Positions 20,159 to 25,887 are shown, counted from the stretch's first letter. The stretch: 64,000 bases of DNA from Allosalinactinospora lopnorensis (GCF_000981225.1 NZ_LAJC01000011.1:1-64000); one strand, 5' to 3'. A program made the numbers and translations. Notes: generated by a model not told the origin, from the sequence alone.

Positions 20159-20734
20159 TCAGGCGCCGCTGCCGTTACCGGGGTCGGGGTTGTCGGGATT
20201 CGAGCGCGGCCACGGCCCGGGGATCACTTGCCGGGCCCGGCGGCGCCCGCGGTCGCGGTAGGGCAGCGGGGGCGCGCCGAATACGGTCGTCGAACCCCAG
20301 TGGAGTTGGAAGAACACGCCCGGTCCGCGCCCGGAGGTGAACCGGCCCCAGGTGTCGGCGAGGGCGGCGGTCAGCAGCAGCCCGCGCCCGCGATCGGCGG
20401 CGGGGTCGGGCGCGGTGAGCTCGGCGGGAAACGGGGCGCCGCCCTCGTCGCGGACCTCCACGCGCAGTCCCTCGTGGAAGAAGTAGGCCCGAACGCGAAA
20501 CGCCCCGCCCTCGGCGCCGCTGGCGGTGTGCCGGACGGCGTTGGTCGACAGTTCGGAGAGCAGCAGCAGGGCGTTTCCGGCGGGCTCTTCGGGGACCTCG
20601 GCGATGGCCAGCCGGGTGGCCAGCCAGTCCCGGGCGCCCTTGACGCTGCGCGGGCACCCGGTGAACCGCCCGGCGCAGCGCTGCAGCGGGGCACGGCGCG
20701 GGGGTTCGGGGACGGGACCGATACGGTTGGACAC
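20159..20734 (-). CDS. RsbW-like ATP-binding protein (anti-sigma factor kinase type)
   Basis: A 191-residue HATPase_c_2 protein. The N box reads LLLSELSTNAVRHT, the G1 box VEVRDEGG and the G2 segment GRGLLLTAALADTWG. Such stand-alone ATPases phosphorylate anti-anti-sigma factors or sequester sigma factors, and are highly multiplied in filamentous actinomycetes. The C-terminal 40 residues are a disordered Arg/Pro/Gly/Asn tail. No cognate sigma or anti-anti-sigma gene is adjacent. Start MSNRIGPVP at 20734 lies close to an intrinsic-type terminator (20769-20808) in the opposite sense. Confidence 0.8.
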   Translation of the reverse strand: MSNRIGPVPEPPRRAPLQRCAGRFTGCPRSVKGARDWLATRLAIAEVPEEPAGNALLLLSELSTNAVRHTASGAEGGAFRVRAYFFHEGLRVEVRDEGGAPFPAELTAPDPAADRGRGLLLTAALADTWGRFTSGRGPGVFFQLHWGSTTVFGAPPLPYRDRGRRRARQVIPGPWPRSNPDNPDPGNGSGA

Positions 20735-20768
20735 GAGTCCTCACCTGCTTACTCAGGTCGGGGGCCAA

Positions 20769-20808
20769 GGCCCTGGCCGGTGCTGCAACACCGACCAGGG
20801 CCGTTTTT
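20769..20808 (+). terminator. Intrinsic terminator with T-tract, no obvious upstream gene
   Basis: Stem GGCCCTGG/CCAGGGCC (20769-20776, 20795-20802) continues through one C-A mismatch into CGGTG/CACCG (20778-20782, 20789-20793), loop CTGCAA, followed by GTTTTTAT. It is a textbook plus-strand intrinsic terminator, yet it lies between two divergent genes; nothing on the plus strand before it is a gene back to the alpha-mannosidase. Confidence 0.7.
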
Positions 20809-21004
20809 ATGTGTCGGCGTCATGTGCCAGCCAGAGACCCTCAGTCACCATCTGAGCACCGACGCCACTGCTAGTGTGCCCTGCAACACAGAGGATGGCA
20901 AGCAAAGCTATAGAAACTCCAAAATTGGCAACTTGCGAAAAGTTGGCATCGTGCACTGGATCAGCGAAACTATTGATGTCCATGTCTGCGTCAGGAGGTG
21001 TCGG

Positions 21005-21871
21005 GTGGCAGATGCCAGCCCCACAGTCGCGCGTCGCACGTTGGCGAGAGTGCTTCGCCAGCGCCGGGAAGGCGCGCGCATTACCGCTGCTAAAGCAGCA
21101 AGTCACGCGGGGATGCACGCTGCCACGCTCAGCAAGGTAGAGAGCGCGACGACCCGGATCCAGCCAGGGACCGCCCAGGCTCTCATGAAGTACTACGGAG
21201 CCTCAGAGGATGAGTGCGAGGCCGTGTTCGAGCTGGCGCACGCAGCCCGACAGCGTGGTTGGTGGCGGACCTACAAGGCAACGCCCGCCTGGTTTGATGC
21301 TTACGTCGGCCTGGAGACCGAAGCGAATTCACTTCGGGACTACCAGACAGAACTCGTCCATGGTCTGCTGCAGACGGAGGAATATGCTTTCGCACTAGCG
21401 CGGGCGGCGGTTGACGTCACATCCAACGAAGAGGCGAAAGAGCATGTTGCGCTCCGCATGGCACGTCAGGAGCGGCTGAGTGGTGACCGGCCGCTCGAAC
21501 TGCACACCATCATGAACGAAGCTGCGCTGCACCGAGAGGTAGGCGGAGCTCAGGTCATGCGTTCGCAGCTCCAGCAGTTGCGAGAACGCTGCGATCTGCC
21601 GAACGTAACGTGTCAGATCCTGCCGTTCGACTCGGGTGAGCACCCCGCCGGATACGGGTCCTTCGTGATCATCTCGTTTCCCGCATTCCAGCATCAGACC
21701 ATCACCTTCGGTGATGTCGTCTATGTCGAATACGGGTTGGGGGCGCTTTACCTCGAAGAGCCCTCCGATATCGAACACTTCACCAAGATCTTTGGTGGCT
21801 TGAAGGATCGGGCGTTGAACCAGGAAAAATCGCTGGCACTGGTTGAACGCGCACTCGCTCAGTACAAGTAG
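21005..21871 (+). CDS. XRE-family regulator with DUF5753 domain
   Basis: A 288-residue regulator: XRE helix-turn-helix at about 10-65 (LARVLRQRREGARITAAKAA, then MHAATLSKVESATTRIQPGT), followed by DUF5753 with LRDYQTELVHGLLQTEEYA, LHTIMNEAALHREVGG and the C-terminal TFGDVVYVEYG. This is the partner of DUF397 proteins. GTG 21005 is chosen because AGGAGG lies at 20993-20998 with ideal spacing. Codon usage and GC content are lower than the neighbouring genes by eye, hinting at recent transfer. It probably controls the DUF397 gene that follows after 15 bases. Confidence 0.9.
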   Translation: MADASPTVARRTLARVLRQRREGARITAAKAASHAGMHAATLSKVESATTRIQPGTAQALMKYYGASEDECEAVFELAHAARQRGWWRTYKATPAWFDAYVGLETEANSLRDYQTELVHGLLQTEEYAFALARAAVDVTSNEEAKEHVALRMARQERLSGDRPLELHTIMNEAALHREVGGAQVMRSQLQQLRERCDLPNVTCQILPFDSGEHPAGYGSFVIISFPAFQHQTITFGDVVYVEYGLGALYLEEPSDIEHFTKIFGGLKDRALNQEKSLALVERALAQYK

Positions 21872-22577: not shown

Positions 22578-24071
22578 TCAACCGGCGCCGCCGAGCGCGA
22601 CCGTGACCGTGAACGCCATCAGAACCACGAGCGTCCACACGGCCGGCGCGGAGCTTTCCATCTGGGCGCGGCGCCGGCTCGCCCGCGCGGCGAAGGCGGC
22701 GCCGCGCGGCACCCACCACGGGTCGTGCCGAGCCTCCAGCAGGTGGAATGTCACCCCCAGCCCGGCACCGTAGGCAAGGTGGCCTACCAGGCTCGGGAAA
22801 CTATTGGCGGCGTCCTCCGCGGTCCACAGCGGCTCGCCGCCGAGCAGCACGGGAAACAGGGTCAGCCCGCCCAGTACCCACCACAGGAAGCCGTAGGAGG
22901 TCCCCCAGCCGATCGCGGCGGCCAGGTCGTGCGTCTGCCGCCGAAACAGCAGCCCGTAGGACACGCCGACGATCAGGGCGATGGTCAGGTGGACGGTGAG
23001 CCCGACACCGGCCGAACTCCCGCCCACCAGCCGGGCCACCCTCGGGAACAGGTCGAGGTGCGCCATGACCATGGTGAACAGCAGGCCGCCCACGCAGCCG
23101 GCCAGCGCACCGCGGCCGACCGCACGCAGCGTCCGGGCGCCGGGCCCCTCGTCGTCGGCACGCTCCACGGGGGCGGTGAACAGCAGCCGCCACACCCGGT
23201 CGATCCAGGTGTAGACGGCCGCTACCGCCACACAGAACAGCAGGTATGCCGGGAGTGTCACGAACACCTCGGCCACGGCCTGCGCCGACCAGGCCAGCGC
23301 GCCATCCTCGACCAGCGGGACCAGCGTCAGCCCCAGCACCACCCACAGCAGGAAACCGAACCCCGCCCCGCGAACCAGGGACGGCCCCGCGGCGTCGGGC
23401 GCGCGCGGGTACAGCGCCGCGAACCCCACGCCGGCGAGAATCCCCAGACCGAACACGGCGGCGGTGACCGTCCCCAGCGGCCGCTGCGCCATCGCCGCGG
23501 AGACGGCGAGCGGCCCGTACTGCTCGCCGACCGCGGCGGTGATCAGCCACGCCGACACCACACCGGCGACCGCTCCCCGGAGCATGCCCCCCGCCCTCAC
23601 CGGGGTGTCGGCCCGTTCCGTCGGCGGCGCCCCGGCCCGGTCGGAGTCGTGTTGACGTATCCACGCGAGGACAAGACCGGTGGTCGCGCCGTACAGCAGA
23701 TGCCCGAGCAGGCTGGGGAACGCCTCCTGGGCAGCCGCGACCGTCCACTGCACCGGCTGGCCGAGCACCACCAGCCGCAAGGTGAGAGCGCCGAGGTACC
23801 ACCAGAACATGCCGTAGGCCAGCCCCCAGAACACCGTCTCGCCCGCGCCGGGGCTCTGGTGGCGGACCAGGACGGCGAACAGCGCGCCGATGACCGCCGC
23901 GATCGCCATGTGGACGACGAACCCGACCAGCGGCGAGTCCACACGCACCAGCGACGCCACCGTTGGTAGCACGCCCAGCACGACCATGGCCGCGCCGAAC
24001 ACCAGCCCACCGGCGACACCGGCGAACGCGCCGGACGCCACGAGGTCGGTCGCCGATCCATTCCTGGCCAT
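22578..24071 (-). CDS. Integral membrane protein made of three tandem copies of one domain
   Basis: A 497-residue membrane protein with about 13 hydrophobic segments. It is built from three copies of a ~128-residue unit at roughly 11-138, 163-290 and 319-447, plus a final helix (478-495). Copies 1 and 3 share YGMFWWYLGALTLRLVVLG/YGFLWWVLGGLTLFPVLLG, a Pro-X-X-Trp-Thr, and FPSLLGHLLYGATTG/FPSLVGHLAYGAGLG; copy 2 is more divergent. The same unit forms the N-terminus of the adjacent NDH-2 protein, whose stop lies 20 bases upstream of this start. I know no function for the domain. Co-transcription with NDH-2 suggests a respiratory-chain or quinone-linked membrane role. Confidence 0.8.
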   Translation of the reverse strand: MARNGSATDLVASGAFAGVAGGLVFGAAMVVLGVLPTVASLVRVDSPLVGFVVHMAIAAVIGALFAVLVRHQSPGAGETVFWGLAYGMFWWYLGALTLRLVVLGQPVQWTVAAAQEAFPSLLGHLLYGATTGLVLAWIRQHDSDRAGAPPTERADTPVRAGGMLRGAVAGVVSAWLITAAVGEQYGPLAVSAAMAQRPLGTVTAAVFGLGILAGVGFAALYPRAPDAAGPSLVRGAGFGFLLWVVLGLTLVPLVEDGALAWSAQAVAEVFVTLPAYLLFCVAVAAVYTWIDRVWRLLFTAPVERADDEGPGARTLRAVGRGALAGCVGGLLFTMVMAHLDLFPRVARLVGGSSAGVGLTVHLTIALIVGVSYGLLFRRQTHDLAAAIGWGTSYGFLWWVLGGLTLFPVLLGGEPLWTAEDAANSFPSLVGHLAYGAGLGVTFHLLEARHDPWWVPRGAAFAARASRRRAQMESSAPAVWTLVVLMAFTVTVALGGAG

Positions 24072-24091
24072 TGCGCTGTCTCCTCGGCTCG

Positions 24092-25887
24092 TTACCTCGT
24101 ACGGTCAGGTTCGGGCGAGGTGACCCGCGGTCGGGGCTGGACGGCCCTGGCCTCGGTGAGCACCACGTCGCGGGAGAAGAACAGGTCGAGTGTCCAATCG
24201 AGGGCGACCCGGATCTTCTTCTCCGCGCCGGGCAGCTTGCTGAGGTAGGTGCCGCGCCAGAGCAGCCAGGCGAGCAGCCCGGAGAACGGTCGGCCGCGCA
24301 GCTCCGCGGCCCCCTTCTGGTGGCCGAGGGCGACAAGCAGGCCGATGGTGCGGAACCGGAACGGTTTGGCCGGTTTGCGGTCCAGTTCGGCGACGATGTT
24401 GTCGGCGGCGGTCCTGCCTTCCCGCAAGGCGTGCTGAGCGGTCGGCGGATGGAACTCGCCCGGCGACGTCACATCGGGGACGGCGGCGCAGTCGCCCAGC
24501 GCCCACACATTGTCCACCCCCCGGACCTGAAGCGTCGGCGTGACGGCCAGCGCATCGTTGCCGGCATGCCTCCCGGGTAGCTCGGCGACCAGCGGGTGCG
24601 GCTGGTTGCCGGCAGTCCATACCAGCGTGCATGTCGGCATCCGCTGCCCGTCACTGAGGAGGACCTCCTCCTCCGTCATCTCGGCCACCCGCGCGGACAG
24701 CGCGAACTCGACCCCCCGCAGCCGCAGGTCGGCCAGCGCGTAGTCGGCGAGCTCGCGGCTGAGCTCGGGCAGGATACGTTCCCGGGAGTGCACGAGGACG
24801 AACCGCAGCTCCGCCGGGTCGATGCGCGGGTAGTAGCGCCGGACGTCGTGCACCAGGTCGAACAGCTCGGCGATCAGCTCAGCACCGGCGAAACCACCAC
24901 CGGCTACCACAAAGGTGAGCTGCCGGCACCGCCGTACCGGGTCGGGCTCCACGTCGGCCCGTTCCAGCAGCCCGATCACATGGTTGCGCAACCGGATGGC
25001 GTCGCCGAGCGTCTTCAACGCGAACGCGTGCTCGGCCACCCCGGGAAGCCCGCGGTAGTTCGCCGTGGCGCCGAGCGCCACCACCAGGTGGTCGTAGTGC
25101 AGCACCTCGGGCGGGTGGTCGTCGCCGCGCCGCAGCCGGACCTCCTGCCGGTCGGTGTCCACCGCCTCGACCCTCGCCTGGTGGAACACGGTGTGCGGGC
25201 ACAGCGCGCGTACCGGCGCGCTGATGTGCCGCGCCTGCAGGGCACCCGCGGCGACTTCAGCGAGCATCGGCGTGAACAGCAGATAGTTGCTGTCGCTGAC
25301 CAGCGTGACCTCAACGTCGGTGCGCCGCGCCAGCCGATGTTCCAGGCGCTGCGCCGTGCTGATACCGGCGAAGCCGCCTCCCAGGACGACGACACGACGG
25401 GTCGGCGGGGGAACCGACGCCCCGGTCGACGCGAGCTTCGTCCGGGTGAGCACCGCGAGGAGATAGTGCGTGCCGAGGCCGGTCAGCGCCCCGTACAGCA
25501 GGCGGCCGACCAGGAACGGGAAGGTGGCCTCGGCGTCGGCCAGCGCCCACGTCACCGGCTCGCCGGTGAGGACCGGCAGCAACGTGAGCGACTCGGCCAT
25601 CCACGCCAGCATGCCGAGCAGGACCCCGGAGCCGACCGCCGCCGCATGACCACGCGGCCGGTAGCCGACGACAGCGCCGATGACCGCCCCCACCAGCACA
25701 CCAACGACAAACCCCACCCCCAGCCCGGGGCGCGCCGGCTGGGGCCGACGAAGTCCGTGCTGTTCATGCCCTGGGAGATCTGGACGAGCCCGACCACGAG
25801 ACCGGCGAACAGCCCCACCCAGGCGCCGGCTACGGGCGGCACCTCCCGGGGCAGCTCGGGTGTGGGGGCAGGAGTGGAGTCGGCCAT
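24092..25887 (-). pseudogene. NDH-2 type NADH dehydrogenase with N-terminal membrane domain, frameshift near 25735
   Basis: About 598 residues when repaired. From ATG 25887 (GGAG nine bases before it) the frame gives PPVAGAWVGLFAGLVVGLVQ and NSTDFVGPSRRA; the rest continues in another frame from PGLGVGFVVGVLVGAVIGAV. The first ~150 residues form the membrane unit shared with the neighbouring protein (LTLLPVLTGEPVTWALADAE, FPFLVGRLLYGALTGLG). The remainder is a complete NDH-2: FAD motif VVVLGGGFAGISTAQRL, NADH motif FVVAGGGFAGAELIAEL, ALGDCAAVPD, and a C-terminal amphipathic helix. It oxidises NADH and reduces quinone without proton pumping. Fusion to an integral membrane domain is unusual, since NDH-2 is normally peripheral. 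One base is missing in the GC-rich stretch 25725-25745. Confidence 0.8.

Follow-up and report, generated by a model that had tools for sequence, protein, structure and literature searches.

An NDH-2 fused to a DUF6789/DUF1440-type membrane unit is encoded beside a three-unit membrane protein in Allosalinactinospora lopnorensis and bacteria of approximately ten phyla

Introduction

Canonical NDH-2 is regarded as a single-chain, monotopic or peripheral enzyme that does not pump. Peripheral redox enzymes may be served by integral helices carrying His residues, as in the anchor subunits of the SdhC/D and NarI types, and in the di-heme cytochrome b of the bc1 and b6f complexes two His residues lie approximately 13–14 residues apart on helix 2 and again on helix 4. 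The FLEET system of Listeria comprises EetA/EetB, a PplA-type lipoprotein, and an Ndh2 whose membrane domain serves an outward membrane route of its own. YjlC of Bacillus subtilis is, by description, a small protein of an unrelated family and not a repeat membrane protein.

Amphipathic helices constitute the membrane anchor of NDH-2, and the NDH-2 quinone motif AQxAxQ has the known variants AQxAxR and APxAxQ; a conservation study of the enzyme omitted NDH-2s with extra fused domains (PMC5299459). Escherichia coli YagU belongs to the family DUF1440; external acid strongly induces it, and it has a part in acid resistance (PMC2270276).

We analyzed a 64,000-nucleotide stretch of the Allosalinactinospora lopnorensis genome (NZ_LAJC01000011.1:1-64000; hereafter the window), in which a fused NDH-2 adjoins a three-unit membrane protein. 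Comparison with the described systems revealed that (i) the NDH-2 resembles those of C. thermarum (4NWZ), S. aureus (5NA1), yeast (Ndi1), and mycobacteria (9MQY) in catalytic sequence and fold, and shares the AQxAxR quinone motif and the C-terminal amphipathic helices with known NDH-2s; (ii) unlike canonical NDH-2, the fused enzyme has an N-terminal four-helix unit and a co-inherited three-unit partner; (iii) the unit is similar to DUF6789/DUF1440/YagU proteins in its approximately 135 residues, four helices, TM2 His, and TM4 GHL motif, whereas these relatives, in the present data, are mostly single-unit proteins without NDH-2 and here three units occur in one chain and one on NDH-2; and (iv) unlike in the single-unit relatives, the His residues are lost in about half of the units here. 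By analogy, the partner may be likened to YjlC as an accessory protein binding an NDH-2 (integrative model 9a63), and the fused enzyme to the FLEET NDH-2, whose membrane domain serves a dedicated membrane route outward; unlike in FLEET, clustering of the flanking genes here revealed no conserved neighbor besides the partner. No sequence or fold match to the SdhC/D and NarI types was found for the present module, in which heme is putative. A literature search, thin on subscription journals, returned no description of an NDH-2 fused to a membrane unit and only an off-topic mention of DUF6789. Both ingredients belong to known families; within the searched literature, no account appears to exist of their combination, of its arithmetic of four units, or of how widely it is spread.

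Results

The three-unit membrane protein

The three-unit protein, designated P0001 (497 residues; 22578..24071, minus strand), was identified from its open reading frame, a Pfam DUF6789 match, AlphaFold prediction, and orthologs, and has 13 predicted transmembrane helices. Its ATG lies 20 bases beyond the NDH-2 stop codon, and a Shine-Dalgarno-like GAGGAG (24080..24085, minus strand) is found in the sequence 8 bases 5' of it. The protein contains three mutually homologous units of approximately 135 residues and four helices each: unit 1 (residues 8–142; 23646..24050, minus strand), which keeps the His pair H54/H124; unit 2 (residues 160–294; 23190..23594, minus strand), a degenerate copy without the His pair; and unit 3 (residues 314–448; 22728..23132, minus strand), the most conserved unit, which keeps H361/H431. 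Beyond the three four-helix units, AlphaFold predicts a 13th helix at the C-terminus (TM13, residues 458–493; 22593..22700, minus strand), which bears a conserved APALW motif.

The P0001 model (pLDDT 91.1, pTM 0.91) and that of the fused NDH-2 from the closest relative of the window gene (locus L061; pLDDT 89.2, pTM 0.83) were predicted as single chains, both with confident folds. In the former, 13 long helices are joined by short ones.

The fourth unit lies at the N-terminus of the NDH-2, as an earlier note on this DNA had recognized when it counted one membrane unit four times in two adjacent genes; BLASTP and a unit profile hidden Markov model (HMM) both recover three copies in P0001 and one on the NDH-2. 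Residues 92–213 of the NDH-2 align with unit 1 (E = 1.4e-17), unit 3 (E = 1.7e-15), and unit 2 (E = 9e-6) in BLASTP, and an HMM built from units 1 and 3 finds four places in the window genome, with E values of 2.5e-59, 8.4e-58, 1.6e-17, and 1.9e-9. Judged by these alignments, homology of the four units is far beyond chance. The motifs that the note had taken to be common to all four copies are distributed unevenly: the Trp/Pro framework, that is, the TM3 Trp and the subsequent Pro and Trp, is retained in every unit, including unit 2 and the NDH-2 unit, from which both His residues are gone, whereas FPSLxGHLxYG is present in units 1 and 3 only and is not kept in the other two.

The fused NDH-2 gene

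The NDH-2 gene (24092..25887, minus strand) is split over two frames. The leader and first helix, starting at 25887, are in a different frame from the remainder of the gene; DNA alignment with L061 revealed that one base is absent near 25743, and the codon-phase GC content changes frame at the same point. The affected region (25700..25745, minus strand, beside GGGGGTGGGG) was delimited by alignment with this relative, whose NDH-2 is 81% identical. The degenerate N-terminal membrane unit (25451..25850, minus strand) spans the frameshift, which had been passed over when the N-terminus was read as one frame. In the nearest relative, an intact NDH-2 of 601 residues is encoded (L024:7346-9151 / L061:7296-9101). 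According to the alignments, the frameshift is a mutation or a sequencing or assembly error confined to one genome. Programmed frameshifting was considered and rejected, because the nearest relative (NDH-2 part 81% identical) has a single frame and one base is simply gone. Since the NDH-2 of the window is frameshifted, the system may be damaged in Allosalinactinospora lopnorensis.

The catalytic part (24092..25396, minus strand), which comprises the FAD and NADH domains, the AQxAxR motif, and C-terminal amphipathic helices, was assigned by Pfam, PDB profiles, Foldseek, and motif. The tDBDF-type pair of dinucleotide-binding domains is supported by Pyr_redox_2, which matches the window NDH-2 at 142.7 bits (cut-off 26.1); NDH2_C matches it at 26.5 bits, slightly below its cut-off of 27.7. 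PDB profiles of the C. thermarum, S. aureus, and Ndi1 NDH-2s match this part at 2.8e-80 and below, and the NDH-2 part of the ortholog model superposes on 4nwz with a Foldseek TM-score of 0.92. The amphipathic helices (residues 546–560 and 564–579 in the L061 ortholog model) are retained. The AQxAxR quinone motif is present in the fused NDH-2s; the idea that an unusual quinone motif is special to them was discarded, because canonical actinomycete NDH-2s carry AQxAxR too.

Two further regions of the window were noted: a carbonic anhydrase gene (PF00484; 29350-30063, minus strand), whose product has an N-terminus resembling a Tat-type export signal, and an HTH/DUF5753 regulator gene lying opposite a small ATPase-like (anti-sigma-type) gene (20159-21871).

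The unit belongs to a known superfamily

The unit had been taken for an undescribed one, which it is not: Pfam already holds the family as DUF6789 and DUF1440/YagU. P0001 matches DUF6789 (PF20587) at 30.4 bits, above the cut-off of 27.1, and DUF1440 (PF07274) at 30.5 bits, below the cut-off of 34.7. The DUF1440 cut-off is passed by other three-unit proteins (L050, 36.8; L093, 44.0), and some three-unit orthologs fall slightly under that of DUF6789 (L050, 25.4). These profile scores support membership of the unit in the DUF6789/DUF1440 superfamily, the function of which is uncharacterised, though P0001 itself fails the DUF1440 cut-off.

Among 395 genomes of the class, 28 contain matches to the unit profile, which are mostly single-unit proteins, and only two (the window genome and G336) contain the three-unit form. 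Among the matches listed for the 395 class genomes, two NDH-2s align over the length of the N-terminal unit, and both adjoin a three-unit gene. No NDH-2 was found near the single-unit genes in 19 actinomycete stretches; their surroundings include a Crp-type regulator in 12, a MerA-like flavoprotein disulfide oxidoreductase in 9, and glutaredoxin and CcdA in a few, examples of which were confirmed by Pfam. This thiol/metal redox neighborhood of actinomycete single-unit genes recurs in L031, L191, L192, L194, L196, L199, and L200.

Genomic linkage and co-inheritance

An alignment of the unit, used to scan 84,980 species genomes, yielded 80 loci, of which 6 were set aside because the contig starts in or just before the three-unit gene, leaving 74 informative loci. 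In 72 of them (71 detected by script plus L105, whose three-unit gene is split), the gene immediately upstream, in the same orientation, encodes an NDH-2, and the commonest spacing between the two genes is a 4-bp overlap. The query was drawn from three-unit proteins, so that the sample favors those over single-unit ones; because it contained no NDH-2, the adjacency of NDH-2 is independent of the search. The N-terminal unit was detected on 64 of 71 upstream NDH-2s, and of the 7 others 3 are cut by the contig start and 1 is split by a frame break. The two exceptions are L125, which looks like a single unit, and L093, where no NDH-2 occurs within the 931 bases upstream of the three-unit gene; downstream of the latter gene are gnd, zwf, and pgl (L093:932-4924; names assigned by eye), and the presumed products of gnd and zwf, 6-phosphogluconate and glucose-6-phosphate dehydrogenases, are NADPH producers. 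The HMM check that had been proposed for the unit therefore gave a divided answer: the three-unit form is tied to NDH-2 (72/74), and the unit is a generic family whose members in Actinomycetes mostly occur without it. As far as these comparisons of genes go, the unit itself is generic, and what is specific is the four-unit NDH-2 assembly.

The loci with the pair are labeled as Actinomycetota, Chloroflexota, Armatimonadota, Sysuimicrobiota, Bipolaricaulota, Bacillota, Myxococcota, Planctomycetota, and Acidobacteriota, as well as Eremiobacterota and TA06, in total approximately ten phyla; many are metagenome bins, and the cultured carriers include Streptomyces olivaceus and Kutzneria. Clustering of the flanking genes revealed no universal third gene at the pair loci. 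The search for plasmid carriage returned only two partial Deinococcus matches to the three-unit protein and none with a single-unit query, and no RNA elements were found near the locus. In a Bipolaricaulota (Acetothermia) bin, an additional single unit lies upstream of the pair (L068:3991-4458). A molybdopterin oxidoreductase (PF00174, Pfam-confirmed for one representative) with a membrane N-terminus is located by or near the pair in 8 loci (L081:10642-11835 and relatives in 7).

In a tree with 18 canonical NDH-2s, for which the outgroup consisted of actinomycete NDH-2s only, the NDH-2 domains of the 58 fused proteins group in a single clade with support of 100/100. For each of the four units, pairwise distances track those of the NDH-2 domain (correlation 0.83–0.88), and evolution is slowest in unit 3 and the NDH-2 domain. 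The tree and the distances support the view that the NDH-2 and the three-unit protein have been inherited together.

The His pair and its predicted position

In 73 three-unit proteins, unit 3 keeps H361 on helix 2 in 67 and H431 on helix 4 in 71. A second His pair is carried by unit 1 only in 38 proteins and by unit 2 only in 26, never by both, and by neither in 9. The choice between units 1 and 2 tracks the two main clades of the tree and may reflect a single switch, and the Fisher p-value does not stand for independent events. The NDH-2 unit carries a His pair instead or additionally in a few systems, and in some systems Gln, Asn, or Tyr replaces His. Among 54 complete systems, two units with a His pair are present in 44, three in 3, one in 6, and none in 1. 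The single-unit relatives, including YagU, share the TM2/TM4 His pair with no NDH-2 nearby, so that the site need not concern quinone. The alignments show one conserved His per helix and not the pattern of the di-heme cytochromes b.

The loops on the presumed cytoplasmic side contain 17.3 Lys and Arg per 100 residues, compared with 4.5 on the opposite side. This bias indicates that the N- and C-termini of each unit are cytoplasmic, in agreement with a cytoplasmic NDH-2 following the fused unit. Because helices 2 and 4 have the His residues at their starts, this topology places them in the outer half of the membrane, and we infer that the His pair faces away from the NDH-2.

Sequence search found no solved structure of the membrane unit, and comparison of the membrane part with the PDB by Foldseek gave no confident match (best E = 0.019, a ClC protein, TM-score 0.14). 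The best VIA match of a single unit was to four helices of MmpL4 (MmpL/RND), with a Z-score of 5.9 over approximately 120 residues, where values below 8 are background for helical bundles according to the tool's own notes.

Discussion

The linkage to NDH-2, the co-inheritance, and the gene overlap are most economically read as signs of a membrane partner complex, and the NDH-2 and the three-unit protein are very probably physically associated. The earlier note had suggested such a complex; the linkage at 72 of 74 loci, the co-inheritance, and the usual overlap support it, and the complex itself is what we infer from them. That the operon merely joins two membrane-associated proteins that form no complex is highly improbable, since the unit is fused to the NDH-2 and present three times in the neighbor, in the same order in approximately ten phyla and with co-inheritance.

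We favor, with a probability of roughly 0.45, a single complex with a four-unit membrane module and, in the outer bilayer half, a site for quinone or another redox ligand; both ligand and flow direction are putative. The N-terminal unit of the NDH-2 would pack with the three units of its neighbor to form a module of four units, with 16 helices plus one extra, which would keep the NDH-2 on the membrane while the enzyme reduces quinone at the inner face in the usual manner. The module would further provide a putative site for quinone/quinol or another redox ligand, centered in the two intact units on the TM2/TM4 His pair and the Trp/Pro cluster, and an integral complex would result, with the normally monotopic enzyme as its catalytic subunit. 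The outer-half ligand site is the part of this reading that we hold with low confidence, and several observations count against the reading: the 7 of 54 complete systems with fewer than two His pairs, the single-unit relatives that have the His pair with no NDH-2 nearby, the three-unit gene of L093 with no NDH-2 in the adjoining 931 bases, and the frameshift in the window NDH-2. An extended form, in which an integral multi-subunit NDH-2 has a pseudo-tetrameric module of two active and two degenerate units, an outer redox or proton site, and transmembrane coupling, seems rather unlikely.

A module that is purely an anchor or scaffold, keeping the NDH-2 tightly on the membrane or coupling it to other respiratory enzymes, would suffice for the fusion and the gene pairing, which by themselves require nothing beyond anchoring, and the B. 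subtilis NDH-2 likewise has a modeled partner protein in YjlC (PDB 9a63). Anchoring alone is disfavored, and in our estimate improbable, because the best-conserved residues are placed in the half of the membrane away from the NDH-2 and the amphipathic anchor helices of canonical NDH-2 are still present; in addition, a 12-helix partner would be excessive for mere anchoring. The same outer-half residues could instead belong to a heme-b (or metal) electron conduit, the His pairs of which would pass electrons from the NDH-2 or quinol to an acceptor outside, like the cytochrome-b subunits that anchor other respiratory dehydrogenases. The two His residues, which lie at matching depth in a Gly-rich four-helix unit near the outer ends of its helices 2 and 4, and the preservation of the pair in two of the four units, are consistent with such a conduit, as are the positions of single-unit genes next to those for NAD(P)H-dependent flavoprotein disulfide oxidoreductases, CcdA, glutaredoxins, and in one case a multicopper oxidase, and the membrane-anchored molybdopterin-type oxidoreductase adjoining or near the pair in 8 loci. 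A single outer heme is possible; however, with one conserved His per helix there would be no inner-face heme to bridge the flavin and the outer site, Foldseek and VIA (a weak test) returned no cytochrome b fold, and Gln, Asn, or Tyr stands in place of His in some systems, and we regard the conduit as doubtful.

Least probable of all is an ion-translocating module, that is, a pumping NDH-2 in which protons would move through the four units, driven by NADH oxidation or driving it. The acid induction of YagU, which has the same His pair, and its contribution to acid resistance (PMC2270276), together with the weak similarity in fold between single units and four MmpL/RND helices (Z 5.9), would fit this proposal. 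However, a Z-score below 8 is within the helical-bundle background, no antiporter-type acidic residue or lysine was noted in the alignments as conserved within the membrane, and nothing that could couple the NDH-2 flavin to the outer site is evident.

If the favored complex with its four-unit module is true, an NDH-2 clade would work as an integral complex in approximately ten phyla. The DUF1440/DUF6789 family, including YagU, would gain a biochemical setting, namely a conserved His pair beside a defined enzyme.
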